Source of the DNA: a virus
Strand: one strand, 5' to 3'
Virus record (IMG/VR): IMGVR_UViG_3300036852_000252
Span: 1 to 44,528 of that record
Length of the DNA stretch: 44,528 nt
Below the pieces are notes generated by a model that had not been told where the DNA came from, did not search any database, and saw only the letters and a program-made list of their open reading frames with translations. The position numbers and the translations under genes were made by a program. Below are positions 1 through 43,876 of this stretch, piece by piece. Position 1 is the first letter of the stretch, and every line of letters starts with the position of its first letter.

Positions 1-127
1 CCGGGCGGCGAGGCCACGGCCAGGTCGTAGGTCGCGGACGGGTCGCTTGACTCATAGGTCCCGTCCTGCGAGCCGAAGTAGTCGATGACCGTCGTCCCGT
101 CGGGCTCGGCGAACATCCACGCCCAGG
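1..127. repeat. Left copy of 127-bp terminal overlap
   Basis: Bases 1-127 are identical to 44402-44528. The repeat lies inside an open coding frame that continues smoothly across the join, so it is best read as assembly overlap of a circular or circularly permuted genome rather than a biological terminal repeat. The exact value 127 equals a commonly used largest assembly k-mer, which supports that reading (inference). Confidence 0.93.
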
Positions 128-2894
128 CGACGTCATCGCTCATGATCTCGGTGAGGAAGCTGGGCTTGCGGACGAGGGCGATCGGCTCGTTGTGCAGTCC
201 GATGCGGGAGAGCGTGATGCCGACCTTCTCGTTGCCCAGGTCCGGCACGTCCACCGACTGAAGCAGCATGATCTCGTTCACCAAGAGAACACCCACCTGC
301 ATGCGCACGTCGATGAGGTTGCCGGGGATGAGATTGTCGAAGGTGAACGGCGCCGTTCCCAGCAGGTCGCAGGAGAGCTGCATCGGCTCCTCGCCGGAGA
401 CATCGAGCAGAGCCTGCGCGGCCGCCCGAGCCCCGTTGCTCGTGACGACCAGTTCCTGCTGGGAGACCTGCTGGACGAGCCCCGTGAACGCACCCACGCC
501 ACCGGCCGCTCCCCACACCGCCACCGATAAGCCGTCGGGTGTCTCACCCGTCACGATCCATTCCGACGCCACACCCAGGCCGTCCTTGGTGACCTGAACG
601 GAAGCTTGCTCGACGTGGGTCTCCAGCAGGCGCCCGATGACGTCGCCCTGCCCGATGCCGCGCAGGCGAAGGGTGCGCTTGAACATCGTCCAGTCCACAC
701 CGTCGTCCCCGAGCTCGCGCAGGGAGTCGGCGACGTAACGCTTGTCGCTTTCGAGCACGGTGCGTCTTTCCACGATGCCGCAGAGTTCCTTGTCGATGGC
801 GATGTTGGGGGATGAGTCATAGAGCATCGCGTCGGTCGCGTACTGCTCGAACACGTCGCAGAGGTCGGCCGTGCGGTCACGGCCCAGCGGGTGAACCCGC
901 CTCTCGTACCACTGGAAGAGATCGCGGCAGGAAATCGTGATGGTGTCGAAGGTGAACCCGACGCTGTCGGAGATGGGACCGACCCAGGTCTCCTCTCCGT
1001 CGCGAAGCAGGACCATCTCGTACTGATACGCCTTCAGCTTGGCCAGCACTCCCAGGCAGTGTGGCTCGACGTCGCCGATGAGGAACCCCGCGGTGCCGAA
1101 GCTCATGTCGTCGAGTCGTCGTCCCATCGATCCGCTCACGGCCTTGGCGTCCAGGAGGACGTGCCCGCCGCGTTCGGCGATGTCGACGGACCAGATCCCG
1201 CAGCCCAGCGTCTTGTTGAGCGGCGCGCCACCGGGCAGGGAGTCGGACGCCGGACAGTCGAACGTGGCCGTGACCGCATGGTCGCCGTCCATCGTGACCG
1301 TGCGTTCCTCGACGCCGGTTCCGTCCCCCGTCCATCCCTCGAACGTGCAGCCGGGCCCGGCCTCTGCCGTGAGCACCACTTCGGTGTCGGGGTCGTAGCA
1401 CTCGTCGCAATCGGACGGACAGTCGATACCGGCGGGTGACGACGTGACCGTTCCGTTCCCGACGACGGTGACCGTGAGCACGGGCTTGGCGGCGAAGGTC
1501 GCAGTAACCGCCTTGTCCGCATCCATCGTGACGACGCGCGGATCGCCCGATCCATCCCCGGACCACTCGACGAGGTAGCAGCAGTCGTCCGGAGTAGCTG
1601 TGAGCGTGACTTCGGTATCGGCGTCGTAAGTCTCGGAGCAGTCGCCGGGGCAGTCGATGCCTGCTGGCTCAGACGTGACGGCACCGCAGCCGTCGACGGT
1701 GACGTCCAGGGCGAAGGTCGAGGGTGCGTTCTGGACGGTCAGGGCGATGGTCTGGAACGTGCAGGTACCCGAGGAGCCGGTCACACGGACGTCCAGCAGG
1801 TCGTCGACGCCGATCGCGTAGTCGTTCGTGGTGTCGGTCACCCACCCAGTGCCGGTCGTGGGGACGGACACCGCCGAGGGACTGCCCACATCTCCTGCGT
1901 TCCCGCGCAGGGTCAGCGCAGTGAGGCCGCTTGTCTCCACGTATGCGGTGAGCAGCGAGGCGACGGCGCCCGACCACGGGAACTTGACCTGAGCGCTGGC
2001 CTCCGCACTTACGCCGAAGATCATCCCGGACAGGGGTGCGGAATTGTTGTTCGCCAGGGCGACGGCAGCTCCACTCGCATTGTGCGAAGCGACGAGATGC
2101 CAGACGCCGTCGGGCGACTCGATCTCGACCTTCACCTGGTTGATCGTTATGCCGGACGGGCTCGACGCTCCCTGCGTGGAGATGACGAGTAGGTCCCCGT
2201 CCTGAGCCTGAATCTGGTTCGCCGTGTCCTCGAAGTCCGCGACGGCGTTGCACGTCACTGACGGAGCTGTGCCAGCGCCAGTGGCTCCCTCAATCGTTAC
2301 GACGCACTCACCCGCCGTCCTCGCTGCGCAATGGACGTACAGGTTCTTGACGATGACATACGGCACGCCCGGCGGGAGCCGGACCTTCCACTCCTGCGTG
2401 GTGGAGGTCGTCGCATCGCCTGCGTTCACCAGCGGGTGGTAGTGCTTGGTCGTGTTCGAGACGCTCCGACCGACGTTGCTGAAGAAGACGTTCGTAAGAG
2501 CGCTGGCTGAAGTGAAGACGCAGGCGACATGCATCAGCTCGTCGGTAACGGTCCCGCCCGACCCGCCATAGTGCTCGTAGTCGAGCAGGTCGCCGTCGGC
2601 TACGGTATCGGTGTTCGTCAGGTCCTCGTAAAGACCGTTCACAGACGTAAACGTGACTATTTGGTTGCCGTAGCCGCCGTTCTTCCGAACACGGATGCTT
2701 GCGCCGGGTCGGTCGCCTCCAATCTTGTACGCCATCAGGTGCGACAGCGTGCCGGCGGTCCGATACTTCACCGCTATCCGGGCCTCGAGGTTGTCTCCCT
2801 CGAGCTTCCCCTGCGCGAGCGGGTGGTAGCGCGTAAGGCCGGAAGCCACCGAAGCCTGAGGGAACGTCGTGAGGAGGACGACTTCGTTCGCCAT
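1..2894 (-). CDS. Large minor tail protein, ReqiPepy6 Gp37-like (N-terminal part, continues at 44401)
   Basis: The ATG at 2894 overlaps the stop of the upstream gene (TGATG). The frame stays open to base 1 and continues in phase from 44401 to a stop at 43876, giving 3,420 nt and 1,139 residues. Domains from the N-terminus: a beta-rich region with a GGYGN-type segment; two tandem Cys-rich repeats of about 75 residues ending in VTATF, resembling divergent InlB B-repeats; then a long region starting near GGAPLNKTLGCG that resembles siphovirus Gp37-like tail proteins (baseplate/Tal role). The LamG-like C-terminus lies across the join. Its place after the tape measure fits a tail-tip protein that contacts the host surface. 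I translated this frame by eye; family assignment is from recognition, not a search. Confidence 0.85.
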   Translation of the reverse strand, partial: MANEVVLLTTFPQASVASGLTRYHPLAQGKLEGDNLEARIAVKYRTAGTLSHLMAYKIGGDRPGASIRVRKNGGYGNQIVTFTSVNGLYEDLTNTDTVADGDLLDYEHYGGSGGTVTDELMHVACVFTSASALTNVFFSNVGRSVSNTTKHYHPLVNAGDATTSTTQEWKVRLPPGVPYVIVKNLYVHCAARTAGECVVTIEGATGAGTAPSVTCNAVADFEDTANQIQAQDGDLLVISTQGASSPSGITINQVKVEIESPDGVWHLVASHNASGAAVALANNNSAPLSGMIFGVSAEASAQVKFPWSGAVASLLTAYVETSGLTALTLRGNAGDVGSPSAVSVPTTGTGWVTDTTNDYAIGVDDLLDVRVTGSSGTCTFQTIALTVQNAPSTFALDVTVDGCGAVTSEPAGIDCPGDCSETYDADTEVTLTATPDDCCYLVEWSGDGSGDPRVVTMDADKAVTATFAAKPVLTVTVVGNGTVTSSPAGIDCPSDCDECYDPDTEVVLTAEAGPGCTFEGWTGDGTGVEERTVTMDGDHAVTATFDCPASDSLPGGAPLNKTLGCGIWSVDIAERGGHVLLDAKAVSGSMGRRLDDMSFGTAGFLIGDVEPHCLGVLAKLKAYQYEMVLLRDGEETWVGPISDSVGFTFDTITISCRDLFQWYERRVHPLGRDRTADLCDVFEQYATDAMLYDSSPNIAIDKELCGIVERRTVLESDKRYVADSLRELGDDGVDWTMFKRTLRLRGIGQGDVIGRLLETHVEQASVQVTKDGLGVASEWIVTGETPDGLSVAVWGAAGGVGAFTGLVQQVSQQELVVTSNGARAAAQALLDVSGEEPMQLSCDLLGTAPFTFDNLIPGNLIDVRMQVGVLLVNEIMLLQSVDVPDLGNEKVGITLSRIGLHNEPIALVRKPSFLTEIMSDDVAWAWMFAEPDGTTVIDYFGSQDGTYESSDPSATYDLAVASPP

Positions 2895-3094
2895 CAGCCC
2901 TCAGCCTGCTCTGACTCCTTCACGATGGCCTCGTATGCGGCGCGATCCTTCAGTCTCTTGTGCCGCTTGCAGCGCTGCTCGAACTCCACGATCTCAAGCG
3001 TCGATTCGGGGTCGTCCGCGTCCAGGTCCATCGAGAACGTGAACACGCAAGCGCAGGCATCGGGTCGTAGGCGCTGGACGTGACACGTCGTCAT
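2894..3094 (-). CDS. Small hypothetical tail-region protein, 66 aa
   Basis: It overlaps the upstream gene by 4 nt and the downstream tail gene by 1 nt (TGATG), so it is translationally coupled inside the tail operon. The sequence has three Cys near the N-terminus (TCH, ACAC) and a charged helical C-terminal half. I recognise no family. It could be a small tail-assembly or structural accessory protein. Confidence 0.75.
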   Translation of the reverse strand: MTTCHVQRLRPDACACVFTFSMDLDADDPESTLEIVEFEQRCKRHKRLKDRAAYEAIVKESEQAEG

Positions 3095-4134
3095 AACTCG
3101 CGACTAGCCCTCGTAAGACTCCAGGTCACGTCTTCCGCCGCGTCGTTCTGCACGCAGACGCAGACCGAACTGCACGCAGGCACGACCGGCCAGCAGAAGG
3201 AGCCATTCCACTCCACGCGGTCGTAGCCGGGCTCGAAGGCTCCGCCCGCTACGGGGTTGCCGTAGCTGATGCGGTTGCGCATCGCATCGACGGTGATGGA
3301 GGCGTTGGGTGGAAGTGAGGGGATGGTGTAGAACATCGACGCCGAGATGCGGTCCTCGGGGCAGGAGCCGTCGAGAGAGTAGGTCATCGACACCGTGACG
3401 CCAGGTTCGGAGAGTCCTGAGTCACCCGTCGCAACTTGGATGACGAGCGCTTCGCCCTCGAACCAGGACTCGGTCGTGATGAGTTCGCAGCCGGTGTTGC
3501 CCGCCGTGACCGTTTCGGCGTCCACGGCGGTCGTCACCGGGCCGTAGAGCCATGGCATGGCCGTTGCGATCTGGAACTGGCCGAACTGGATGATGTAGGC
3601 GTCGTCCTCGGATACCTCGTCCCAATGCGGCCCATCGATGAGCGCCGCTCCCACCAGCGTTCTGAAGTCCGCGGAGAAGTCGTCGTCGGTGTAGTCGGCT
3701 TCGCGGCAGAACGGAAGCAGCGACATTTCGTCACCGGAGCAGCCCGCCTGGCAGAGGCGACCCCGCAGGACTTCGGTGATCCAGCGCTCGCCCCACCACA
3801 TCGAACGGGAGTCGCGCGCGATCATCCAGCCGGTGACCTCGACGATGCGTCCGGGGCGCTCCTCTCGTCCGATGACCGAACCCTCGTCCAGCAGGTTGCG
3901 TTGTTCGCGTGCAGTGGGGACAGATAGCTCGATGTGCTCGGGGAAAAAGCCGAGGAAGTCGCCCGATTCGGGATGCGTCGAGTCATACCAGGGCGCCGAG
4001 TCATCGGCAGGCGTGTCGAAGTTGTCATCCAGAGCCGGGCATGGACAAGAACCGAGGAACTCCGTATACGTGCCGGTGCGCACGCCGTTGGTGATCTCGG
4101 TCCCGCCAAGGCAGATCCAGGGCCCGAGCCTCAT
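3091..4134 (-). CDS. Minor tail protein (distal-tail-like), 347 aa
   Basis: It lies directly after the tape measure gene (4-nt ATGA overlap), where distal tail proteins normally sit. The sequence is beta-rich with many cysteines (CPCP, RLCQAGC, CSSVCVCV). The N-terminal pattern of a short amino start, a GT-rich strand and then an EVTGWMI stretch fits tail-tip hub proteins. The exact family is not recognised; the call rests mainly on synteny. Confidence 0.72.
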   Translation of the reverse strand: MRLGPWICLGGTEITNGVRTGTYTEFLGSCPCPALDDNFDTPADDSAPWYDSTHPESGDFLGFFPEHIELSVPTAREQRNLLDEGSVIGREERPGRIVEVTGWMIARDSRSMWWGERWITEVLRGRLCQAGCSGDEMSLLPFCREADYTDDDFSADFRTLVGAALIDGPHWDEVSEDDAYIIQFGQFQIATAMPWLYGPVTTAVDAETVTAGNTGCELITTESWFEGEALVIQVATGDSGLSEPGVTVSMTYSLDGSCPEDRISASMFYTIPSLPPNASITVDAMRNRISYGNPVAGGAFEPGYDRVEWNGSFCWPVVPACSSVCVCVQNDAAEDVTWSLTRASREL

Positions 4135-6668
4135 CGGCGTGAATCCCTGCCCATCAAGAACGCGATCCTCCGCGCGAGGGCTTCCATGTTCTCCTGGTTC
4201 GAACTTAGGTTGAACGTGTTCCCGGACTTGCCGAGCTTCCGCAGGATCTGCTCCAAGATCATGTTCGTGTCCGAGTTGTTGAAGACGCGGGATGTACTGC
4301 CTACGCGGATGAGCTCGGTACCGGCTTCACCGGCAAAAAGGAAACCCGGATGTGCAACACCGCCGTGCTGGAAGTGCTGCTCACGGTTGACCTTGCCGCC
4401 TTCGAGGACGTTCACGAAGACGTCGAGGCCCTTGTCCTTCAGCTTGATGCGGTTGATTTCCTTGAGTCTGTCGATGATCTTCTGTGCGGTGTCCCGGCTG
4501 ATGCCCAAGGCCCGTGCCAACTCATCGACGCTTGGATTCTTGACGATGATCTTCTCAAGCCCTGCGAGTTGCGAAGCGGTCAGACCGACCGCCGTACCTA
4601 CAGCCTTAGCTAACGCGACAGCAGCCTTATCGCCCTTCTGTTTGAAGTTGGGGGCCCACTTCTCAAGAGCCGGGTCGGCTCCTTGAAGTTTGGCGGCAAC
4701 TATGGCATCCCGCGCGGCGGTCTCGGCGCGCCCTAAACCGTTCGGTCCGGCTAGCTGATTCACGGCGTCCTGAGCGGCCTTGGCTGCCGAAGGACCGAGC
4801 TTTTCGAACTCGAAGGCCAATACAGTAGCACCTGAGGCAGCGATCGTTTCAAGATTCCCCTGGAACTTGGAGAATTGCCGAGTATTGGCCTCAGTCGTCT
4901 TCACGAACTCGGCGAGGCTCCCTTTGGCTGTCTTCGATAAGAGATCGAACGAGGCCACGAGACCAAGGTTCGATTCGGTGCGTTTGATGGTCGCCTGACG
5001 TTCCGCTTCCTCGGCCTTCTTGGCCGCTTCCTCGATCTGGTCGGCGTCCTTCAGGGCTTGTGTCGCCGCTTCGCTGCGGACCTTCTTCAGGTCCTCCTGG
5101 GAGAGCTTCTCGCCGCTTGCCGCTTCGGCAGATGCAACGAGAGCCTCCGCGTACTTCTCGACGGCTTGCCGGCCGACCTCGCTGTCGGCAGAGATTCCTT
5201 TGAGACTCGCGGCAAGTCGCGCCTGCGCACCTTCTTGGATGACCGCGGAAGAAGACAGGTTCGACACGGCCGCTTTGAGGAATGTGGCCGTCTCGTCCTG
5301 CTCCTTCATCGCAGCGGTGAACTCTCTGGTGCTGGGGTCCGCCGCCTTCTCTGCTTCGCGGAGTTTTTCGAGCTGACGTTCCAGACCCCCGATGTTCTTC
5401 TCCAGCTCCGCTGCACGGATGGCTTGGTCGAAAAACGCTTGGTCATCGCCCGTCGCCTTATTGAGTCCCTCCAACTCCTTCTTGGACTTCGCCAGCTCCT
5501 CGGTGACGCCTCTGAGCTTGTCTTGGACATCGGGTCCTGCTGCCGACGCGATAGCGACAGCGAACTGGTCAGCCTGTTCCCTTGCCTTCGCGATGCTTTC
5601 GGCGATCTGGACCCCGACGAAGACGACGCCCGCTGCCGCGGCCGCGACAAGAGCGCCTCCCAACGTGCCGAGGGCAACAGCGCCGAACCCCGCCGCTTCT
5701 TCGATTCCAGTAGCCGCCTTGCCGACACTGACGAGTCCGCCACCGACCTTCTTCGCTATCGGCAACACACCCGCTGCTGCCTGCGTGATGTTCGCCAACG
5801 GTTGCGCGACAGTCGCGATCCCGGCCACCGCCAACCCGATGCCACCGGCCACGTTGCGGATGGCCGGGTCGAGCGTGTTGAACTTGTTGACGACCCCGGT
5901 CGTGATCTCCGCAAGCTTGGCAAGGATGGGGATGGTCGTGATGCCGACCTGCACCTGCAAGCCCTTCAACGACTGTTCCAGTGCCCGCGTTTCCTCGTTG
6001 AAGTGCTTGAAGGCGACAAGGTTCCTGGACGTGAGTACGAGACCGAACTTCTGCGCTTCGGAAGCGATGTGCGCGAAGTCCTGCGCGGTCAGTGACAGGA
6101 GCTTCCGTAAATCCGCGCCCGAGCGCCCGAAGACGTTGATAAGGAAGTTGTTCTGTTTGGTGATATCGCCCAGGTGTCGGAACTTGTCGGCCAACAGCGG
6201 GATGGCGTCGGTGAGCTTGCCGGTCTTGAGTGTTGCGAGGTCGGCGGCCGTGAAATATTGCTTGAAGTTCTTCCCACCTTGCTCGATGTTCTTGGAGAGG
6301 ATGACAAGCGGCTTCGAAATCCCATCCGCGTTGACCCCGATACGATTCAGGACGAAGACAAGCTTGGATGCTTCCTCAGCCGATGCACCTGTGACCGTGG
6401 CGACCTTGCGCACCGTCGCCGCGTAGTCGCTGGCTCCCTGGATGGCCTTCTTGAACGCCACGGCTAACACGACACCGGCGGCGACGCGCGCGACGTTGCC
6501 CAACGCCTGCAGGTTCTTCTCGGCCTTGGAGGTATCGACCTTCACTTCGACGGGCTTGGTGCGCTTCGATGCGTTCTCGGCGGCCTGGGAGACGCCCTGG
6601 GTCAGCTCCCGCTCGTAGGTACGGAAGCCGGGATGGGTCTCGAGGATGGCATCGCCGACGACGGCCAT
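4131..6668 (-). CDS. Tape measure protein, 845 aa
   Basis: This is the longest intact leftward ORF in the tail module. It is Ala/Lys/Glu-rich, has long helical and coiled-coil stretches (about residues 370-600) and hydrophobic segments (AAGVVLAVAFKKA; AALVAAAAAGVVFVGVQIA), as in siphovirus tape measure proteins. These set tail length and occupy the tube lumen. It follows the two frameshift-related chaperone ORFs, the classic order. The C-terminus carries a GGVAHPGFLFAGEAGTELI segment common at tape-measure ends. At about 2.5 kb it predicts a tail of roughly 125 nm by the usual 1.5 angstrom per residue rule. Confidence 0.95.
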   Translation of the reverse strand: MAVVGDAILETHPGFRTYERELTQGVSQAAENASKRTKPVEVKVDTSKAEKNLQALGNVARVAAGVVLAVAFKKAIQGASDYAATVRKVATVTGASAEEASKLVFVLNRIGVNADGISKPLVILSKNIEQGGKNFKQYFTAADLATLKTGKLTDAIPLLADKFRHLGDITKQNNFLINVFGRSGADLRKLLSLTAQDFAHIASEAQKFGLVLTSRNLVAFKHFNEETRALEQSLKGLQVQVGITTIPILAKLAEITTGVVNKFNTLDPAIRNVAGGIGLAVAGIATVAQPLANITQAAAGVLPIAKKVGGGLVSVGKAATGIEEAAGFGAVALGTLGGALVAAAAAGVVFVGVQIAESIAKAREQADQFAVAIASAAGPDVQDKLRGVTEELAKSKKELEGLNKATGDDQAFFDQAIRAAELEKNIGGLERQLEKLREAEKAADPSTREFTAAMKEQDETATFLKAAVSNLSSSAVIQEGAQARLAASLKGISADSEVGRQAVEKYAEALVASAEAASGEKLSQEDLKKVRSEAATQALKDADQIEEAAKKAEEAERQATIKRTESNLGLVASFDLLSKTAKGSLAEFVKTTEANTRQFSKFQGNLETIAASGATVLAFEFEKLGPSAAKAAQDAVNQLAGPNGLGRAETAARDAIVAAKLQGADPALEKWAPNFKQKGDKAAVALAKAVGTAVGLTASQLAGLEKIIVKNPSVDELARALGISRDTAQKIIDRLKEINRIKLKDKGLDVFVNVLEGGKVNREQHFQHGGVAHPGFLFAGEAGTELIRVGSTSRVFNNSDTNMILEQILRKLGKSGNTFNLSSNQENMEALARRIAFLMGRDSRR

Positions 6669-7717: not shown

Positions 7718-7757
7718 AGCCCAAGGCTACACGCGCGGTCGCACAACTCAACCGAAT

Positions 7758-8336
7758 CTAGGAGACCGCAGGCTCGCAGGCGCAGATGGTCCCGGCTTCA
7801 ACGAACGCGCGAACCTGGATCGACGCGCACCCGCCCTCGCTCACCTGCGGACGACTCTCCTGGATCTGCACCCGTCGCTTGCGCTTGGAGCCAACGCCCT
7901 CGTTCACCACGCAGCAACTGAGCGACGTGACGATGGCGTACTGGTCGATGGCCATCAGGAGCGCTGCGGCCTGTAGTTCGTCCGTGGATACCAGCTCGCC
8001 CTGGTCGTTGGTGCTTCGCGCGCAGCGGGCCGACGTGACCACGAGCGAAGCGACCCACGTCTGAGCCTTGCAGGGCTCGAATCCTGAGCTAGCCACCGGG
8101 AAGTTGTCAGAGGGGAACACCGTCTCGATGTGGACCGTGAGCATCCCGCTGCTCGGCCCGGTGCAGTCCACGGAGCAGCAGTCGACGGCGGGCTCGCCGG
8201 CCGACACGTACTGCAGGCATGGGCACGAGTAGCCCTCGGGGATGCCCTCGTCCTCTGCCAGGTCCATCATCTGCCGGCAGACACAGGAAAGTGCTAGGTC
8301 GGCGACATCGTAAAAGCTGGTCGCGCGACTGCTCAC
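7758..8336 (-). CDS. Putative head-tail connector/minor structural protein, 192 aa
   Basis: It overlaps the upstream gene by 4 nt. It is Cys-rich (CVCRQMM, CPCLQ, DCCSVDC, CCVV, CACEP) like most structural proteins of this phage, which suggests disulfides or metal sites stabilising the particle. Position between a connector-like protein and the gp10-like protein suggests a neck or tail-terminator role. No family is recognised with confidence. Confidence 0.65.
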   Translation of the reverse strand: MSSRATSFYDVADLALSCVCRQMMDLAEDEGIPEGYSCPCLQYVSAGEPAVDCCSVDCTGPSSGMLTVHIETVFPSDNFPVASSGFEPCKAQTWVASLVVTSARCARSTNDQGELVSTDELQAAALLMAIDQYAIVTSLSCCVVNEGVGSKRKRRVQIQESRPQVSEGGCASIQVRAFVEAGTICACEPAVS

Positions 8337-14195: not shown

Positions 14196-15614
<1,419 letters not shown>

Positions 15615-24096: not shown

Positions 24097-24594
24097 TCAA
24101 CTCCGTGCCTCATCGATGTCGATGATCTCGGCTTCTGTCGTGCTACCCGGTAGAAGCGGCGGCATGTCCACCATCGCGGCAGTCAGTTGCGGCGTCACCC
24201 ACTCAGCGAACGTCTGCCCTGTTGGCAGCACCATGTGAGACAGGAACGCCTCGTCGAGCGTCTCGATGCCACTCTCAACGGCTTCGAGCTTCGCCTTGAT
24301 AACGAGATAGAGCGCGCGCCAGCGGCGACGGACCTCCTGAGCCCACGCCTTGTCGCGCTGGATATCGGTCCGCTTCTCCCGCCCGTAGCGACCCTGCTTG
24401 TACGCGAAGTCGGCACCGCCGGGGATCGAGATCATGAATCGGACGCGGCGGTCCTTCAGGTCGAACATCACGGCAGCACGTCCGGGCTCAGTCATGTAGG
24501 CGAACCGTTCGGCTCCGTAGCGCGTGAGGACCTGCTCGATGTCCGCGCGCGACTTCTCGGGACTGACGGTCGTCGTCTCGGCGTAGGGGCTCAC
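24097..24594 (-). CDS. Conserved actinophage hypothetical protein, 165 aa
   Basis: GTG start overlapping the upstream stop. The sequence has GAERFAYMTEPGRAAVMFDLKDRRVRFMI, then a helical region (RRRWRALYLVIKAKLEAVESGIETLDEAFL) and GQTFAEWVTPQL. Proteins of this shape are frequent before terminase genes in actinophages, but their role is unknown. Confidence 0.75.
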   Translation of the reverse strand: MSPYAETTTVSPEKSRADIEQVLTRYGAERFAYMTEPGRAAVMFDLKDRRVRFMISIPGGADFAYKQGRYGREKRTDIQRDKAWAQEVRRRWRALYLVIKAKLEAVESGIETLDEAFLSHMVLPTGQTFAEWVTPQLTAAMVDMPPLLPGSTTEAEIIDIDEARS

Positions 24595-24842
24595 CCGTCA
24601 CCGTCCTGACCAACGGAGGCACGAGCCGGTGGAAGCGCCAGCATCTTGCTCTGCACGCGCCCGAGATCGGGAATCCATCTCCGAATCACGTCGATCACAT
24701 CCGGCGCACACTCGGAGCAGAAGTGGGCCTTGTTGTCGATGAGCGGCATCCGGTTCAGTTCGAGGGTGAGCCAACCCGTATCGACGTAGCCCTCTCGGAC
24801 GACACCGCAGGCATCGCACTTGGTCGCCGTTACCTGTGTCAC
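24591..24842 (-). CDS. Small zinc-ribbon-like protein, 83 aa
   Basis: Two Cys pairs (CDACG at residues 9-13 and CSECAPD near 38) would bind one zinc ion. GTG 24842 overlaps the upstream stop (GTGA). Function unknown; it may bind nucleic acid or protein. Confidence 0.7.
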   Translation of the reverse strand: MTQVTATKCDACGVVREGYVDTGWLTLELNRMPLIDNKAHFCSECAPDVIDVIRRWIPDLGRVQSKMLALPPARASVGQDGDG

Positions 24843-24988
24843 CCGTCACCCTCCGAACCAGGGGACGCGAACAGCCATCGCACGGCACGCTCGAATCCAA
24901 GAACCGGGTCGAAGATGCAGAGTGCAGCGATGTAGCACAACCCGACGACGAGAAGAACGAGGCAGCAAATAATGATTACTGTGCTCAT
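24839..24988 (-). CDS. Small membrane protein, 49 aa
   Basis: The ATG at 24988 is the start codon provided by the last junction repeat. The N-terminal segment STVIIICCLVLLVVGLCYIAA is one clear membrane helix, followed by an amphipathic tail. It ends without the DQESDA tail and so marks the downstream border of the repeat-linked gene train. Confidence 0.75.
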   Translation of the reverse strand: MSTVIIICCLVLLVVGLCYIAALCIFDPVLGFERAVRWLFASPGSEGDG

Positions 24989-25170
24989 GCGTCCGACTCC
25001 TGGTCCGCAGCCCTAGCGGCACGTAGCTTCACCAGCACGGCATCCCAACCAGTTCGCAGGCTGACCATCGCGGGACACCCCTCTAACTTGCAGTCCTGAT
25101 CGAGTTCAAGATGAGCCTCGATGCCGTCCTCGATGGCGAGCAGGTCATCGACCAACGATTCAAGGCTCAT
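24985..25170 (-). CDS. Repeat-linked small protein, 61 aa (DQESDA tail)
   Basis: Starts MSLESLVDDLLAIEDG; helical and acidic with two Cys (DCKLEGC). The ATG comes from the variant repeat at 25167 and the tail from the perfect repeat at 24985. No family recognised. Confidence 0.8.
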   Translation of the reverse strand: MSLESLVDDLLAIEDGIEAHLELDQDCKLEGCPAMVSLRTGWDAVLVKLRAARAADQESDA

Positions 25171-25349
25171 GATGCGTCCGACTCCTGGCCCGACTTGCGG
25201 CGTCGAACCCCCGGCGGCTGCTCGTACTCGGGGTGCCGCGCCAGCATGTGCCGGTCGTAGTTGCATGGTCTGACCTTCTTGTCGCAGTACGGGCACGGCC
25301 AAGTCTCTCTAGCAGCGCGTCGGGCTCCATTGACCGTGAAGGGGCTCAT
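25167..25349 (-). CDS. Repeat-linked zinc-finger protein, 60 aa (GQESDAS tail)
   Basis: Contains CPYCDKKVRPCNYDRHMLARH, a C2H2-like finger (two Cys, then His-x4-His). It may bind DNA. Its 3' junction is a variant repeat with three extra bases, so the tail has one more residue (Ser) and the next ATG shifts accordingly. Confidence 0.82.
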   Translation of the reverse strand: MSPFTVNGARRAARETWPCPYCDKKVRPCNYDRHMLARHPEYEQPPGVRRRKSGQESDAS

Positions 25350-25828
25350 GCGTCCGACTCCTGGTCACCCACGTCATCGAGCAGGACCCCCAACCCATCA
25401 TGGAGACTGCGCACGCGGCGCACAACGAATGGTGGTTTAGGTAGGTCGAACACGGATTCCAGCACCGCCCTAGCGATATGGTCCGCGTTCGTCGCCATCG
25501 CTGGCGTACACCACGGAATACGCCGAATGGCCTCGGCGGCAGCTTCGACCTCGGCCTCGACAAGCTGTCGAACTGCCGGGTCTACGGTAGGACACTTCGG
25601 GCAATACTCATCGACCTTGGTGCCGTGCTTGCAGTAGTGCCGAGTCATTCCAATCTCCTGGTTTCGCTTGGGACAAGGCTTCGCTCCTAATGCCTGCGCC
25701 GTCCAAGCCTCACGGCCACATAGGGGACATCGAACCGTCCATGAGCGACCGGATTGCTTGCCGACTGGGGACCCGATGCGTGGTCCCCACGCTCGGATAT
25801 GCCCGCTTTTGCTGGGACGGTGGCTCAT
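25346..25828 (-). CDS. Repeat-linked protein, 160 aa, likely fusion of two cassettes (DQESDA tail)
   Basis: Residues 1-60 carry CPLCGRE and CPKRNQE; residues 61-160 begin MTRHYCKHGTKVDEYCPKC, a second zinc-binding motif. The seam at residues 56-61 (RNQEIGM) is encoded by AACCAGGAGATTGGAATGA, which is the junction repeat with two bases missing: the stop is lost and the next ATG comes into frame. Either one 160-residue fusion is made, or the inner ATG (25648), which keeps AGGAG six bases upstream, still starts the second protein. Confidence 0.8.
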   Translation of the reverse strand: MSHRPSKSGHIRAWGPRIGSPVGKQSGRSWTVRCPLCGREAWTAQALGAKPCPKRNQEIGMTRHYCKHGTKVDEYCPKCPTVDPAVRQLVEAEVEAAAEAIRRIPWCTPAMATNADHIARAVLESVFDLPKPPFVVRRVRSLHDGLGVLLDDVGDQESDA

Positions 25829-26007
25829 ACGTCTGGCTCCTGGTCATCCAGGCGCGCTTCCTTCAAGGCAACAAGCCAAGCTGCCGCCCAACACCGCCGA
25901 CATTGCCACCACCCATGAGTTCCGAGAAGGTCGCAATCCTGCTGACGAACATACTCAGCGAATGATTTGGCCTTGCCGACCAGGGAACGTTCGGTTTGCG
26001 TGTTCAT
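25825..26007 (-). CDS. Repeat-linked small protein, 60 aa (DQEPDV tail)
   Basis: Contains CDLLGTHGWWQCRRCWAAAW, a Trp/Cys-rich motif that may bind zinc. The 3' junction is a variant repeat with three mismatches, changing the tail to DQEPDV while keeping the AGGAG, the stop and the ATGA overlap. Confidence 0.8.
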   Translation of the reverse strand: MNTQTERSLVGKAKSFAEYVRQQDCDLLGTHGWWQCRRCWAAAWLVALKEARLDDQEPDV

Positions 26008-26192
26008 GCGTCCGACTCCTGGTCACTCACCCGGCGCTTCGCAAGAGCAACTCCGAGTTCGAGCGTGTCGTGGACGACCTGCGCCCGTGCTTCATCAAGC
26101 ATCGCAAGTGTCCGAAGAAGCTGCGCTACGGCGTCCAGGTCACGAGCCTTCAAAGCATTAGCGATGGCGACTTCGATGTCATCGAGCGTCAT
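26004..26192 (-). CDS. Repeat-linked helical protein, 62 aa (DQESDA tail)
   Basis: All-helical small protein (MTLDDIEVAIANALKARD, QLLRTLAMLDEARAQVVHDTL). Both ends are perfect junction repeats. No family recognised. Confidence 0.8.
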   Translation of the reverse strand: MTLDDIEVAIANALKARDLDAVAQLLRTLAMLDEARAQVVHDTLELGVALAKRRVSDQESDA

Positions 26193-26455
26193 GCGTCCGA
26201 CTCCTGGTCACTCACACGCCAGACCATCGCTCCGCACTCCCGGTCAAGGATTGCAACCACGTCGGCGAGGCGAGCATTCCGGTAGTCCCCGTCCTTTTCG
26301 TCCCATATGAACAAGCCAACGATGATCCCGTCGTCGCGTGGCTGTCGCTGTCGGGCACCGTGGGGAATGACACGCAAACCCTGCTTCGACATCTCGGCGG
26401 CGTAGATGATGTCTTCAGCCATGCCGACAGTCACGTCTGGAAACTCAAGTCTCAT
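26189..26455 (-). CDS. Repeat-linked protein, 88 aa (DQESDA tail)
   Basis: Mixed alpha/beta sequence (GLRVIPHGAR, GIIVGLFIWDEKDGDYRNARLADVVAIL). The context before the tail (RRVS/WRVS-DQESDA) is like that of its neighbour at 26004, so the shared sequence extends a few bases beyond the core here. Function unknown. Confidence 0.8.
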   Translation of the reverse strand: MRLEFPDVTVGMAEDIIYAAEMSKQGLRVIPHGARQRQPRDDGIIVGLFIWDEKDGDYRNARLADVVAILDRECGAMVWRVSDQESDA

Positions 26456-26775
26456 GCGTCCGACTCCTGGTCACCCGCCGATTGCGCCTCATGTGCGCGT
26501 TGGGCCGCGAACGCGAGGTCCATCTCCCGTGTATCAGGCAGGCCCGCCTGTTCAGCGGTAGCGAGCGCGAGTTCGGCGTCCGCTGAGCGGCCCCACGAGA
26601 ACATCAAGGCAGCGGTGTGGACCATGATCGGATCAGCGCTCTCGTCAGGCTCGGCTAGAACGATGAGGCCAAAGTCGCTGACCGGGCGGTCCCGCAGCGT
26701 GTCCCATGCCTCAAACTGGTTCGACGCCCGGACGTACTCGTTGATGCACTTGGTCGTGACGTGCCAGGTTTTCAC
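26452..26775 (-). CDS. Repeat-linked protein, 107 aa (DQESDA tail)
   Basis: The N-terminus MKTWHVTTKCINEYVRASNQFEAWDTLRDR reads as a compact alpha/beta domain, as in small proteins with a 'strand-helix, EAWDTL' pattern; the rest is helical. It starts from an ordinary site (its upstream gene lacks the tail) and ends with a perfect repeat. Confidence 0.8.
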   Translation of the reverse strand: MKTWHVTTKCINEYVRASNQFEAWDTLRDRPVSDFGLIVLAEPDESADPIMVHTAALMFSWGRSADAELALATAEQAGLPDTREMDLAFAAQRAHEAQSAGDQESDA

Positions 26776-27065
26776 GCGGCCCCCTTGAGATCGCTAGCCC
26801 TCAGTCTCGGCGCAGTCCAACCGAGCGCACGCACGGCTCGCTTGACGGCTTCCCAGGTATCCGCCTCCACCTCAATCCAAATAGACCATCGCGTGTTATT
26901 CGTTCGGTTGAACGCCGCGAGAAGCAGGCCCTCGTACCGACCGCTTCGGTTCACCCACCACAGGCCGTCACCGGGCGACCAGACAGAGGCTCTTGCTGGC
27001 GACCGCGTAATCTTCACGGTCGCCGTGCCGACATATCCGTCTGCGATTGTCCGTATCTTCATCAT
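26772..27065 (-). CDS. Small protein, 97 aa, started by a junction repeat but without the tail
   Basis: The ATG lies in the perfect repeat at 27062, but the protein ends LRASDLKGAA; no repeat is present at its 3' junction. It contains SVWSPGDGLWWVNRSGRYEG and WSIWIEVEADTWEAVKRA. The overlap with the next gene remains ATGA, so the missing repeat does not alter coupling. Confidence 0.78.
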   Translation of the reverse strand: MMKIRTIADGYVGTATVKITRSPARASVWSPGDGLWWVNRSGRYEGLLLAAFNRTNNTRWSIWIEVEADTWEAVKRAVRALGWTAPRLRASDLKGAA

Positions 27066-27640
27066 GCGTCCGACTCCTGGTCACCCGCTGGAGGATTCTG
27101 CTTCTCGAACACGGAGAACATTCGTGTCGTACGGAGGAAGCCCGTCACGACCGCGATCAGCCCGACGAGCTTCCAGTCCTTGCGTCGATAAGACGGGTAG
27201 TAGGTGTGAAGCATCCCGAGATGCGCTCCCGGCTTGAGGACGCGGCGAAACTCCCTCATGGCGAGGTTCATCGGGAAGGGTTTGCAGCCGTACTTCGCGC
27301 TGTCCTCAGGTGTGTACGGAGGATCTGAAAGAACGAGGTCGAACGACTCGTCAGCGAAGGGAAGTGCGGCTACGTCGGCCTGGATGGCTGGCTTCCGGAC
27401 ACCGTCAACGACACGGTCCACCGTGATTCCGGTGTCGATTCGTCCAGAGGGTGCGTGTAGGACGCGAACGGCGTCTGGGAAAAGGGCCAACGCTCTCTTG
27501 AGAAAGGTTGGCGGGTATTGACCGTGAAGTTCCACGCGATCCCAGCTCGTACCGCAGTACCAGACTCCATAGGTCCACCCCTTGTCTTCAACCGTGATTG
27601 GATACTTGGGGAACGCTTCATTCACCGCTGAGGCCCTCAT
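27062..27640 (-). CDS. SAM-dependent methyltransferase (DNA-methylase-like), 192 aa (DQESDA tail)
   Basis: The catalytic motif DPPY is at residues 106-109 (SFDLVLSDPPYTPED), followed by REFRRVLKPGAHLGMLH, the class I methyltransferase strand-helix-strand. DPPY is the amino-methyltransferase (N6-adenine or N4-cytosine) motif. The N-terminal SAM-binding glycine loop is not obvious. It could protect phage DNA from host restriction. The junction tail follows PPAG and is probably a flexible appendage. Confidence 0.82.
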   Translation of the reverse strand: MRASAVNEAFPKYPITVEDKGWTYGVWYCGTSWDRVELHGQYPPTFLKRALALFPDAVRVLHAPSGRIDTGITVDRVVDGVRKPAIQADVAALPFADESFDLVLSDPPYTPEDSAKYGCKPFPMNLAMREFRRVLKPGAHLGMLHTYYPSYRRKDWKLVGLIAVVTGFLRTTRMFSVFEKQNPPAGDQESDA

Positions 27641-28077
27641 GCGTCCGACTCCTGGTCATCCACATGGGAATGACGACGAACGAAGCTCTCGCAGATAGCA
27701 GCCTTCGCCTCTTGAACCAACACGTCCGACACTTCGCGCTCGCCGCATGTTCGGCACGTCAGCGCCCAAGTGCCGTCGCCGTCTAGCCGCTCGAACTTCG
27801 CTACCTCGCCCGTCGTGTAGTCCGGGTAGGCGTAGTTCGTCACGGGCGGTTCGGGAAGCGGCTCCTTGCCTTGCAGCAACCTAGCCAAGAGCGCGGAGTG
27901 CCAAGCGTCTGGGTCTAGCTGCATGATGTCTGAGCCATACACGTCGAGCCAGTTGCCCGACAGTTGCTCACCGTTGCGGTAGCGCGTGATGCGTTCCGCG
28001 TTGAGCTTGATTCGTAGCCACTCAGCCACCTTCGAGCAGGCCCACGACGCTTGCTCGGGCGTGAGAGGTTCGCTCAT
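27637..28077 (-). CDS. Repeat-linked protein with CxxC motif, 146 aa (DQESDA tail)
   Basis: N-terminal helical part (LTPEQASWACSKVAEWLRIKL), a middle segment (DPDAWHSALLARLLQG) and a single CRTCG motif near residue 108. Both ends carry perfect junction repeats. No family recognised. Confidence 0.8.
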   Translation of the reverse strand: MSEPLTPEQASWACSKVAEWLRIKLNAERITRYRNGEQLSGNWLDVYGSDIMQLDPDAWHSALLARLLQGKEPLPEPPVTNYAYPDYTTGEVAKFERLDGDGTWALTCRTCGEREVSDVLVQEAKAAICESFVRRHSHVDDQESDA

Positions 28078-28352
28078 GCGTCCGACTCCTGGTCGGCCGA
28101 CGGCCGTTCCGACAGCACGGCCTCAGCGATGAGCACGGCGTTCTCTGGAATGGGACGGTCACCGAACTCGTCCTCGTCAGAAAAGGCGTTCACGGCGATG
28201 ACGAGATCCGCGTCCTCGGTGTAGTAGAGGTCGGAGTCGGGTGGACGTACCGCGTTGATGAGCAGTTGGCCTAGTCGGAGCTCAGGGTAGTTCCCCCAGG
28301 CGTACTCGATCGCCATGAGGACTTCTTTGCGTTCGCGGGGATGGCGCTTCAC
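28074..28352 (-). CDS. Repeat-linked acidic protein, about 92 aa (DQESDA tail)
   Basis: First gene of the train in transcription order. GTG 28352 overlaps the upstream stop as GTGA; ATG 28316 (MAIEYAWGNYPEL) is an alternative start giving 80 residues. The acidic body includes DLYYTEDADLVIAVNAFSDED. Its own start is not in a repeat; its end is a perfect repeat. Confidence 0.76.
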   Translation of the reverse strand: MKRHPRERKEVLMAIEYAWGNYPELRLGQLLINAVRPPDSDLYYTEDADLVIAVNAFSDEDEFGDRPIPENAVLIAEAVLSERPSADQESDA

Positions 28353-28534
28353 GCCGAGGCCCTTCGCTGCTTCTCTGCTTCGATGTCCTTCGGATCGAAC
28401 AGAGGGCCGCGCGGTGTGTGGAAGGCGATGCGGAGCTTGCCAGCTCCGTACAACTGTTGGACGCGCTGCACCGATATGCCGAGTTCTCGGGCGACCTGGC
28501 CCGTCGTCAGCATGTTCGTCAGGTCCTTGGTCAT
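28349..28534 (-). CDS. Small helix-turn-helix DNA-binding protein, 61 aa
   Basis: LTTGQVARELGISVQRVQQLYGAGKLRIAF is a MerR/excisionase-type winged helix-turn-helix; FDPKDIEAEK completes the domain. It is coupled to the upstream repeat-rich gene by ATGA. It may regulate the gene train that follows it, or act in recombination. Confidence 0.8.
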   Translation of the reverse strand: MTKDLTNMLTTGQVARELGISVQRVQQLYGAGKLRIAFHTPRGPLFDPKDIEAEKQRRASA

Positions 28535-29301
28535 GTAGCGGACACCGGGACCTTCGCATCGATCATCCTGTCCAACAATCCAAACGCGGATTCAATGAGG
28601 GCATCCCGAGTGGGTTGCAACGCGGCCCCCGCTGCGTCCCACGCTGCGGCCCTCGCTGCGGCCCTCGCTGCGGCCCTCGCTGCGGCCCTCGCTGCGTCCC
28701 ACGCTGCGGCCCTCGCTGCGGCCCTCGCTGCGGCCCTCGCTGCGTCCCACGCTGCGTCCCTCGCTGCGGCCCTCGCTGCGTCCCACGCTGCGTCCCACGC
28801 TGCGGCCCACGCTGCGTCCCACGCTGCGGCCCACGCTGCGGCCCTCGCTGCGTCCCACGCTGCGGCCCCCGCTGCCTTTCGGCACGCCTCAAGGACGGGC
28901 TTGATGGACGGGATCTGACCGGAGTGCGTGAGTTCGGGAAGTCCTTCCAGTGCCGCCGCTTGCTCGGTTAGACCAGCGAGGCGGAGCCAGGCCGGGGTGT
29001 GGACGCGGACCAGCCAGTCAGCTGCCATCCATGCCCGAACCTCGTCGAGTTCCTTGCCGCTCGCGGTTCCTGCCAGTCGGGGGATGTAGGCCTTCAACCG
29101 CTGCCGGATGTCCTTCGGGAGCGCGTCGTTCCAACTGATGCCGAAGGCACGAAGGACCGGAGACACGCAGGCCGGTGACGCCGTGTGTGGTTCGTCGGCC
29201 CACCACGCGACAGCTTCCATGAGACACACCGAGTTCTTGCCTCTTCGTGAGTGACCGCCGCTTTGAAGCGTGATCGAATTTAGGTCGATGTGGTGCGTCA
29301 A
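28531..29301 (-). CDS. Phage/actinobacterial protein with AAWD/AARA tetrapeptide repeats, 256 aa
   Basis: TTG start with a strong GAGGAGGGG site. Residues 1-140 form a conserved-looking domain ([50 protein letters not shown]). The next 84 residues are 21 tandem tetrapeptides AA-[W/R/G]-[D/A], then a short C-terminal helix. The repeats should form one long Ala-rich helix with a stripe of Trp/Arg and Asp/Ala every four residues. The N-terminal domain is reminiscent of proteins found in Streptomyces and their phages. Function unknown. Confidence 0.82.
28621..28872 (-). repeat. 12-bp coding minisatellite, 21 units
   Basis: 252 bp made of exactly 21 units of 12 bp. Each unit is GCAGCG + TGG or AGG + GAC or GCC, so two single positions vary: W or R, then D or A. 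In protein order the units are GA, WD, RA, WA, WD, WA, WD, WD, RA, RD, WD, RA, RA, RA, WD, RA, RA, RA, RA, WD, GA. The linked pairs WD and RA dominate. As 12 is divisible by three, unit gain or loss keeps the frame. Confidence 0.95.
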
Positions 29302-32567: not shown

Positions 32568-32730
32568 TCGGCTCGTTTCCGGTCTTCGCCGGCACAGCAA
32601 GGTCCGTCGTCCTGCAGGCGTTGCACCACGGTCCTTCCTCGTCTTTGTGCAGCTCCCGGCAGACGCAGCAGTAGCCGTCCTCGTCTGGTTCGTAGCAGCC
32701 GAGGCGGCAGCGTGTGCACTTCTCGATCAT
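32557..32730 (-). CDS. Small multi-CxxC zinc protein, 57 aa
   Basis: ATG 32730 with an AGGAGGGG site. Eight Cys in pairs (CTRC, CCVC, CNAC plus a single Cys) within 45 residues suggest two zinc ions, as in zinc ribbons. The C-terminus EPSDA is only superficially like the DQESDA tail; the junction has a different layout. Confidence 0.75.
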   Translation of the reverse strand: MIEKCTRCRLGCYEPDEDGYCCVCRELHKDEEGPWCNACRTTDLAVPAKTGNEPSDA

Positions 32731-35905: not shown

Positions 35906-36141
35906 TGCCCCTCCTTGAAAGCAACAGCGCGTGCTTGCAGATACACGTAGTCCCCGTCGATGTAAAGAGCCAAGCGTCTCCCAGCCGCGCGGGCATACGC
36001 GTAGTTCCGAAAGCTGCCGACCTTGCACATAAAATCCTCACCCCGCTTGAGCTTCCATATCTGACCGTTAAGCCAGTCGTCCCACGGGTAGCGGCCTACG
36101 CGCTCACGCTCCGGGAAAGCATCTAGAACCTCCGCCATCAT
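35902..36141 (-). CDS. Hypothetical protein, 79 aa
   Basis: ATG 36141 overlaps the stop of the intein-bearing gene (ATGA). It contains YPWDDWLNGQIWKLKRGEDF, then SFRNYAYARAAGRRLALYIDGDYVYLQ, an alpha/beta pattern found in small actinophage proteins. Function unknown. Confidence 0.72.
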   Translation of the reverse strand: MMAEVLDAFPERERVGRYPWDDWLNGQIWKLKRGEDFMCKVGSFRNYAYARAAGRRLALYIDGDYVYLQARAVAFKEGQ

Positions 36142-37442
36142 TCCCCCTCCTTCGGTGGTAGTCCTGCCGCAGCTGCTTCGCTGATGCCCTTCTCCGTCAG
36201 CCAGAACGAGCCCTGCTTCCACGACGCCCAGCCGTCGCGTTCCAGCCTGCGCCCCACGGCTGCACCGTGAAGGCACGGGATCGGGTCACGGCGGGCCAGG
36301 CCACTCGGGCAGTTTCCCGTAAGGATGTTGTCTTCAAGCGCGAAGCATTGCGTGCCCGGAACGACCGCGCAGAAGACTTCCTCGATGCGGTCGGATGATT
36401 CGATGGAGACGACCTGCCATGCTCGTCGGTCTTCGCCAGACCTCGGACCCTTCTCGAAGCGCTCGCGATGCTGGGACCGAACGAAGAAGTCTGCTGTAAG
36501 CGTCGCCATGCAGAAACTCATCGTGTAGAGAGCCGTCGGAACGGTGCCAGTACCGAGCCTCATCCTTTGGCGAATCCCGTATGTCCCGATGCCTAAATGT
36601 TCAGCTAGGACGCGGACGAACTCCAGATTCTCTCGCGCGGCTGAACTCAGACTTGCAGTCGATCCCCTTTTATCGACCGTGCCATCAGCGGCGAAGTAAC
36701 CGGCCAACCAGCCGAAGAGATAACTCGGCGCCTCATTGAGCGACGGCTTCTCTCGAAAGAGGAATGGAAGATCGCATACGCGCGGATCTCCCCGATGATC
36801 GGTCAGCACATGCGACCGACCGAAGTATGGAAGCAATTCCGCTTTGGCGCCGCTTAGGGTCACGTAGGCCTGGGCCCGATGAGTACTACCGTCACCGAAC
36901 GTAACTCCATGCGCGATGCCCAAGGCCGAGGGCCTTACTCTTCGTGCCGAAGCGGGTCGGCGCCACGTCGTTGCAAGCGTGTCCCCCGGTTGCAGTCCAT
37001 CGGTACGACGGGTGAGCGGCGCGCGGCTTTGGCCCTTTATGAACCAACGATGTCCCGGCGTCGCGTAGATCACTTTCCTCACGGAGTTACGGACCAGGGT
37101 GATTCGCATCAAGGACTGTGGGCCGAAGGCCTGAATCTCGGCGTCTATCCATTTCCCGCCCGAAGTCATCAGCCGCTGTGTCGTGCCGGCGAGCTTGCCG
37201 ATCTCATGAATCCCCGACCAGGTCAGGATGCGAGTCTCGGACGCAAAACAATCGCAGCGCAGGTGAAGCTGCCAGAGCCCACCGCGTGAGACGGCTTCCA
37301 CCCTCACGCGATGAGCCCGGCGGCCCCCATCCCCGCAAGACTTCCCGCACTTGACCAGGAACGTGCCATCGCTCTGGAGGCGGGCGTAGCGGCCCTCTTC
37401 CACGGCCCGGACTTCGGCTTGAAGCGAATCAACTCTGCTCAT
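36138..37442 (-). CDS. SWIM zinc-finger protein interrupted by an intein, 434 aa precursor (121 aa after splicing)
   Basis: ATG with an AGGAGGGG site behind a candidate promoter; first gene of the leftward series. Residues 1-64 and 378-434 join to one small protein. The joined sequence reads LRCD-CPSGLARRDPIPCLHG: Cys63-x-Cys378-x11-Cys390-x-His392, exactly the SWIM pattern CxCx(n)CxH. SWIM domains bind DNA or protein. Without splicing the zinc site cannot form, so activity should depend on the intein. It also has a second Cys pair (KCGKSC, residues 31-36). Confidence 0.9.
   Translation of the reverse strand: MSRVDSLQAEVRAVEEGRYARLQSDGTFLVKCGKSCGDGGRRAHRVRVEAVSRGGLWQLHLRCDCFASETRILTWSGIHEIGKLAGTTQRLMTSGGKWIDAEIQAFGPQSLMRITLVRNSVRKVIYATPGHRWFIKGQSRAPLTRRTDGLQPGDTLATTWRRPASARRVRPSALGIAHGVTFGDGSTHRAQAYVTLSGAKAELLPYFGRSHVLTDHRGDPRVCDLPFLFREKPSLNEAPSYLFGWLAGYFAADGTVDKRGSTASLSSAARENLEFVRVLAEHLGIGTYGIRQRMRLGTGTVPTALYTMSFCMATLTADFFVRSQHRERFEKGPRSGEDRRAWQVVSIESSDRIEEVFCAVVPGTQCFALEDNILTGNCPSGLARRDPIPCLHGAAVGRRLERDGWASWKQGSFWLTEKGISEAAAAGLPPKEGE
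36312..37250 (-). mobile_element. Intein with LAGLIDADG homing endonuclease, 313 aa
   Basis: Begins CFASETRILTWSG (block A, Cys1), has ATPGH (block B TxxH, residues 128-131), two LAGLIDADG-like motifs (GIAHGVTFGDGS, about 175-186; LFGWLAGYFAADGTV, about 243-256) and block F EVFCAVVPGTQCFAL. It ends ILTGN followed by Cys+1. The penultimate residue is Gly instead of the usual His, as in some active inteins. Size and motifs fit a bifunctional, probably still mobile intein. Confidence 0.93.
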
Positions 37443-42785: not shown

Positions 42786-43876
42786 CAGGCCGCGATCCAC
42801 GTCAGGTCGATGCAGGTCGTCGGTGACGTCGACGGACCCGTAGTGCCGCCTTTCACGTTCAATGCGGTCGTGCCGTTGTTGTTGAAACCGCCGACGAACA
42901 CGAACTCCCCCGCCGCCAGTCGGACCCGTCGCGTGAAGCTACAGAGCGTCGTGTTACTGGTCGCGCTGGGGATGCCAGCCGCTGCGAAGATTCCGGTGCC
43001 CACGGCGTTCTTCTTCAGCACCCCACCTGAACTGTTCGAGGGTGATGCCTGAGTCCCGAAGAGCAGCACGACGGTGATGAGGTACATGCCGCCCAGACCT
43101 GTGGGGATCGCGACGTACTCGTTCTTCCTCGTCGCCGTCTGGCCTGAGGCTGTTGCGGTAGGGGCGGTCCAGACGACGAGTGACGTGTCGTTGGTGATGG
43201 TTTGCACGACGACGATGTCGGTCCCCGCACCGCCGGGGATGGAGATGACCTGATTCACCGAGAGTTCGGTCGTGAAGCTCGTACCCGAGCCCGTGATGGT
43301 GGTGTTGCCCGACGTCTTGGAAACCGTCCCCGTCAGAGCCGCCGCAGACGTGAAGTGGAAGGCATTGGTGTCGTCGTCCTCGGTATCCCAAGCCAGGGAC
43401 AGCGTGGTGTTCGCGGCAACACTCTGATCCGCCGAATGGCGAAGAGAGCAACCCAGCCCGACGTTGGCAGACCCAGCCCCCGTCGCCCCAGTGGGACCCG
43501 TAGGACCCGTGGCCCCGGTTGCTCCGACCCCCGTGGGGCCTGTTGGCCCCGTAGGCCCGGTCGGTCCCGTAGCTCCTGCTGGGCCGGTAGCGCCTGTAGC
43601 ACCCGCACCCGTGGGACCTGTAGGTCCCGTTTCGCCTGTCGGCCCCGTTGGACCTGCTGCACCGGTAACGCCCGTAGCCCCGGCCGGTCCTGTGGCACCT
43701 GCAGGCCCTGTGGGACCGCTTGCCCCGGCGACACCGGACGCACCGCTGGCACCGGCTGAACCGGGTGCCCCCGGAGGGCCTGGTGGTCCCATGCCCTTGG
43801 GCTTGAGGTTGCGGACCTTCTGCTCAAGCGCGGCGAGCTGCTCGGGGAGCGTGTGAGGACGGACGTGGCGAGGCAT
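42785..43876 (-). CDS. Collagen-like tail fibre protein, 363 aa
   Basis: Residues 1-27 include a coiled-coil start ([15 protein letters not shown]). About 37 Gly-X-Y triplets follow, rich in GPT, GAT and GPA. The rest is a beta-rich C-terminal head ([47 protein letters not shown]) similar in layout to that of the 14196-15605 protein. It overlaps the large tail protein upstream and the glycosyltransferase downstream by single bases, so all three are coupled. Confidence 0.9.

Follow-up and report, generated by a model that had tools for sequence, protein, structure and literature searches.

An unusual array of near-identical coding translation seams joins small genes in a virus genome record

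Introduction

In cluster K mycobacteriophages and cluster EF Microbacterium phages, the start-associated sequence (SAS), a conserved short direct repeat that contains a Shine-Dalgarno (SD) sequence, marks where many small, mutually unrelated non-structural genes begin, with the consensus GGGATAGGAGCCC in cluster K and GGGAAAGGACCCC in cluster EF, and its conservation exceeds the need of pairing with 16S rRNA (PMC3203893, PMC7302621). Within open reading frames (ORFs), 6 of 125 SAS copies have been located (PMC12699233). Here we analyze a 21-nt repeat, GACCAGGAGTCGGACGCATGA, that links small genes in the 44,528-bp virus record IMGVR_UViG_3300036852_000252, the whole of which is hereafter called the window.

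Short repeats have also been described at the boundaries of phage gene cassettes. In phage Island3, boundary repeats give two neighbors, genes 67 and 68, the same C-terminal residues (PMC3029335), and gene 14 of Corndog is flanked by a 17-bp repeat (PMC4351075). Both cases resemble the array described here in having short direct repeats at gene ends, around a variable gene; however, each is a single event (with a repeat of about 50 bp in Island3), whereas here ten copies, built around the SD and the start codon, stand in one array. The ninR region of phage lambda, finally, was reportedly described by Kroger and Hobom in 1982 as a chain of interlinked genes.

Results

The repeat is present in eight exact copies and two variants. 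All lie on the minus strand within 3.1 kb (24985-28094), at ten junctions in a chain of twelve ORFs (g1 to g12). The eight base-identical 21-mers had been reported in a first-pass annotation of the window, and we confirm them; none is expected, judging from 100 dinucleotide shuffles of the sequence. Two of the three further copies claimed there also hold (25167-25190 and 25825-25845) but the third does not, so that the total is ten rather than eleven.

Following the direction of transcription, exact copies join g1 (28074-28316) to g2 at 28074-28094, g2 (27637-28077) to g3 at 27637-27657, and g3 (27062-27640), a methyltransferase gene, to g4 at 27062-27082. The repeat is missing from the junction of g4 and g5 (26772-26775, minus strand; CTCAAGGGGGCCGCGTGA), which is a GTGA overlap with AAGGGGG; g4 (26772-27065) ends with DLKGAA, without the tail, and by appearance the two genes form a unit between seams. 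Further exact copies lie at 26452-26472, between g5 (26452-26775) and g6; at 26189-26209, between g6 (26189-26455) and g7; and at 26004-26024, between g7 (26004-26192) and g8. The copy that ends g8 (25825-26007) and precedes g9, at 25825-25845, has three mismatches (GACCAGGAGCCAGACGTATGA), two of which alter residues (S to P and A to V), giving the tail DQEPDV. An exact copy at 25346-25366 joins g9 (25346-25828) to g10; the copy at 25167-25190, between g10 (25167-25349) and g11, contains an in-frame TCA insert (GGCCAGGAGTCGGACGCATCATGA) and encodes the tail GQESDAS; and the last copy, at 24985-25005, is again exact and joins g11 (24985-25170) to g12 (24839-24988).

The anatomy of the seam can be read directly from the sequence. 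Read in frame with the upstream gene, the repeat is GAC CAG GAG TCG GAC GCA TGA, that is, DQESDA followed by the stop. The SD core AGGAG sits within the D-Q-E codons, spanning Q and E, and the next ATG takes its first base from the end of the A codon and the other two from the TGA, so that stop and start share a 4-nt ATGA at all ten copies. The order tail, stop, ribosome-binding site, start, as given by the first-pass annotation, is therefore wrong, but its constant frame and its spacing of eight bases between AGGAG and the next ATG are correct for the eight exact copies; the spacer is 8 nt in nine copies and 11 nt in the copy with the TCA insert. The ATG dictates how the A codon ends and the SD dictates the Q and E codons, and all ten tails retain a Q-E-(S/P)-D core. 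The bases beyond the SD and ATGA (GACC and TCGGACGC) are invariant in eight of the ten copies and differ in the two variants. Column conservation begins at about -21, fading about 4 nt 5' of GACC, and has a sharp 3' edge at ATGA (+3); we found neither a conserved block upstream of -21 nor a shared hairpin or common RNA fold at the copies. A stop/start overlap with the SD in the upstream gene, the arrangement characteristic of coupled termination-reinitiation, is present at all ten junctions.

The array of coding translation seams is real and unusual. Pairs of array junctions share a mean of 18.2 of 21 bases, compared to 10.4 for the remaining overlap junctions in the genome; among the ATGA junction pairs in 80 other loci (n = 2055), the mean was 9.0, with none above 18. 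Across 199 locus-strands surveyed for clusters of alike junctions, the largest cluster (9) was this array, followed by clusters of 4, 3 and 2. A second, weaker family of alike junctions was observed in the window on the minus strand at 32730, 34121, 34306 and 36141, with the form (G)AAGGAGGGGGAATGA and tails such as KEGE and EEGE. Elsewhere, in locus L096, three successive overlap junctions (at about 6567, 6686 and 6850) that lie downstream of a methyltransferase homolog carry the alike SD unit GCGACGGAGGGGAGATGA.

The exact 21-mer is absent from all other genomes of IMG/VR, with the reservation that near-identical records may lie outside the search, and a search of GTDB genomes with an 18-mer returned three single matches in unrelated bins. 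The 16-mer GGAGTCGGACGCATGA was found at nine sites in 8 contigs, and at 7 of the 9 sites two open frames overlap by ATGA. A single one of these contigs, that of Ruegeria phage vB_RpoS-V16 (MH015258), has this 16-mer exactly more than once; there GGAGTC occupies the SD position in 11 of 12 genes whose starts fall at 843-5807, both inside upstream genes and in non-coding gaps, two GGAGTCGGACGCATGA overlaps included. By analogy, this phage appears to show reuse of an SD word at the level of bases rather than peptides. The V16 module resembles the array in its module-restricted, fixed SD word but is looser, extends to non-coding gaps and lies in a GANTC-rich region: at positions 1-6000, GANTC is enriched 3.3-fold (71 sites vs 21 expected), with no enrichment in the remainder of the 50 kb examined. 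No relation between V16 and the window phage was seen, although none was sought. GANTC is the CcrM methylation site of Alphaproteobacteria. Within the window, GANTC was rejected as a driver, with no enrichment found outside the copies themselves.

By position and conservation, the SAS is the nearest known kind of element. Like the SAS, the array repeat is an SD-including direct repeat just upstream of starts, in one orientation and in a non-structural region; with the cluster K consensus, however, it shares the AGGAG core alone. The SAS is 13 bp long, lies mostly outside ORFs, with genes more than 50 bp apart, has, at roughly half of its sites, an extended inverted repeat of 17 bp and is common across its cluster, whereas the array repeat is 21 bp long, lies inside the upstream ORF in ten of ten cases, has no inverted repeat that we could see and occurs in one genome. 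The distinction from the cluster K SAS drawn in the first-pass annotation was correct, and the array repeat is coding, overlapping and nearly invariant. In the lambda ninR region, as we read its junctions, ATGA overlaps likewise connect small accessory genes whose SD-bearing ends resemble one another (tails RAA, EAA, EAA and EGA), but the junctions are identical at 8-14 of 21 positions, well below the array mean.

The tail itself is missing from homologs of the array proteins. Six homologs of g3, at 60-70% identity and including one nearly identical pair, match it up to MFSxFE, the end of the conserved domain, and past it end in three to thirteen unrelated residues, DQESDA being present in none of the six. 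A relative of g1 ends with LSEREET and its own SD, GAGAGG, where g1 itself ends with LSERPSADQESDA. In a back-translated search of 2.9 million IMG/VR viral contigs, DQESDA followed by a stop was found in other codons at two sites only, neither of which overlaps an ATG start. The tail, then, is known from this genome only, where it ends unrelated proteins. With AGGAG placed within D-Q-E and the ATG drawn from the A codon and TGA, the shared tail is what a ribosome-binding site encodes when translated, and it is probably a by-product. The earlier proposal that constraint or copying works at the level of DNA or RNA is likewise supported, because the codons are identical in eight of the ten copies and homologs elsewhere lack the tail.

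The sole close relative that we found is contig IMGVR_UViG_3300036852_000461 (hereafter G001), the source of the g1 relative above. The two phages are 67% identical in TerL, 69% in g14, 48% in TerS and 81% over 26 amino acids at the end of g1. None of the array genes between g1 and g14 is common to G001: the gene content of this interval is wholly replaced. The 3' part of g1 (28105-28178, minus strand) is 84% identical to G001 at the nucleotide level, and the similarity ends 10 nt before the repeat. At the other flank, GTTGAGCGTCATGCACTCA directly follows g14 in both phages (L012 positions 7754-7801 in G001; 24098-24070 in the window) as the start of a mini-ORF. In G001 this mini-ORF ends with SQETDA at a seam-like ATGA, followed by inserted genes; past GTTGAGCGTCATGCACTCA, G001 carries extra genes behind the junction CAGGAAACGGACGCATGA, and the window continues to TerS. 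The CAGGAAACGGACGCATGA site is suggestive of a related seam, but its score as a homologous seam, 10.6, falls within the shuffled range of 9.1-11.5. Examined for gain and loss of boundary cassettes, the genomes yielded one aligned break, that 10 nt from the repeat, and 0 genome pairs sharing the repeat. The comparison is consistent with an accessory interval of variable content whose breaks fall at seams or close to them, and recombination through the repeat is plausible.

The window has a 127-bp direct terminal repeat, so that the phage genome is probably complete and circularly assembled. From the recognized genes for TerL, portal, major head protein, tape measure and endolysin, it appears to derive from an uncultured tailed phage in which the array would be a leftward accessory operon. 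The twelve small leftward ORFs are bounded on one side by a helix-turn-helix gene (28349-28534) and on the other by the packaging genes; they stand apart from the head and tail genes recognized among the proteins scanned. Gene g14 (24097-24594, minus strand), the conserved flank of the array, is also 43-49% identical to mycobacteriophage proteins. In codon-usage scoring, for which the long genes of the phage served as the training set, the own frame came out best for the array ORFs, clearly for most and by a slim margin for g7 and g9, but for g8 and g12 an antisense frame scored slightly above it; the status of these four as genes would depend mainly on the exact-overlap chain. The methyltransferase reported in the array is borne out for g3 (Pfam PF08241, 1.7e-6; PHROG 3816, 2.4e-26), but the zinc finger is only a C2H2 match below threshold (E = 0.015). 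Relatives of g2 and g6 were sought in viral contigs, and those of g3, g4, g6 and g9 in phage records; none were found. Paralogy among the array proteins was considered and is unconvincing (best E about 0.01 over 31 aa).

In a DNA search of the array region against phages, all matches among those listed fell on a 12-nt tandem repeat at 28562-28933, which encodes an alanine-rich WDAARAAAW or GDAARAAAW pattern in the ORF at 28531-29301; similar repeats are also present in mycobacteriophages and some Pseudomonas phages. Elsewhere in the window, a 434-aa ORF (36138-37442) has LAGLIDADG and weak intein-splicing domain matches, and Gly-X-Y collagen-like coding repeats occur in two separate genes (14615-15366 and 43467-43732), the latter of which matches tail-fiber families.

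Discussion

Taken together, these results lead us to propose that the 21-mer is probably a standardized, coupled translation-initiation seam in an accessory operon, with the copies homogenized within the genome and the tail a by-product. Under this model, a ribosome ending the upstream gene would arrive at TGA having just decoded AGGAG as Q-E. With AGGAG eight bases before the ATG that overlaps the TGA, pairing with 16S rRNA could hold or recruit the 30S subunit, and translation would restart at the overlapping ATG by coupled termination-reinitiation. The residues D-Q-E-S-D-A would be the unavoidable coding reading of the SD, spacer and start, tolerated, it seems, as a short acidic stretch beyond the folded domain. 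The near-identity of the copies would stem from copying within the genome, either short-homology exchange or conversion between seams or gene insertion through a seam, with selection for a working start, added to copying, keeping them alike. The sequence, frame, overlaps, tail-less homologs and different gene content of G001 are observed; reinitiation, tolerance of the tail and the route of copying are what we infer.

Several observations weigh against this model. The pairing of the repeat with the 16S tail is moderate, at -6.9 kcal/mol, compared to -11.7 for the junctions with GGAGG that lie at 32-36 kb in this genome, so that SD strength alone is insufficient to explain the conservation, and fixation of 21 bases needs copying or extra selection. 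Accessibility of the SD, as estimated by folding, is no better at the copies (0.49) than at other junctions (0.57), and 12 further bases are fixed beyond what pure initiation requires. The V16 analogy is clouded by the GANTC enrichment in the first 6 kb of that phage, as GGAGTC contains GANTC.

The additional fixed bases, GACC and TCGGACGC, would be accounted for if the repeat were the target of a protein or small RNA, of phage or host origin, that switches translation of all array genes jointly, as proposed for the SAS on the same argument (PMC3203893). We consider this distinctly unlikely, given the lack of a shared hairpin at the copies and of a candidate factor, and the differences of the two variants in these very bases. 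Somewhat greater weight attaches to the possibility, still an unlikely one, that the repeat is kept chiefly as a recombination seam, as the first-pass annotation proposed, whereby one- or two-gene cassettes would come and go through homologous recombination from one 21-bp copy to another, bringing stop and start with them. That the conserved flanks, g1 and g14-TerL, enclose wholly different genes in G001 is as such a seam would have it, as are the end of g1 homology close to the repeat, the break after g14 followed by inserted genes and CAGGAAACGGACGCATGA, and the two-gene appearance of g4-g5; the Island3 and Corndog cassettes flanked by boundary repeats offer precedents (PMC3029335, PMC4351075), and endonuclease VII and Mu Gam-like proteins are among the gene products of the phage. 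The array does lie in a replaced interval with one homology break near the repeat, but recombination through the repeat itself is no more than plausible: with the 21-mer in no second IMG/VR genome, 0 breakpoints were seen within a copy, the CAGGAAACGGACGCATGA site scores no better than shuffled sequence, 21 bp is short, and no annealing recombinase was recognized among the proteins scanned. Only tentatively, and at rather low probability, can the seam be pictured as a plug-in linker of stop, ribosome-binding site and start, by which unrelated genes would be added, removed and reordered through short homology, every inserted protein gaining a six-residue tail.

The remaining explanations fare worse. 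The Q-E-(S/P)-D core common to all ten tails is what would be expected of a functional peptide tag for localization, turnover or assembly, but the g1 and g3 homologs and, within the array, g4 lack the tail, its codons are identical rather than synonymous, and the near-absence of the peptide in other codons across IMG/VR disfavors the localization or turnover signal that had been offered as an alternative; we regard a tag as very improbable. Repeated duplication of one gene with its junction, followed by divergence of the gene bodies, would yield near-identical copies within 3.1 kb, yet such a recent artefact is hardly credible when the array proteins show no convincing paralogy and g1 and g3 have separate homologs outside.

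Whether the mosaicism of phage genomes arises via conserved boundary sequences or by illegitimate joining is a long-standing question, and most mosaic boundaries carry no conserved boundary sequence (PMC3029335). The ten near-identical coding seams in one array provide a clean natural case for asking whether 21-bp seams drive cassette exchange. They also call for caution, in that shared C-terminal tails of unrelated small phage proteins can be by-products of ribosome-binding sites rather than tags.

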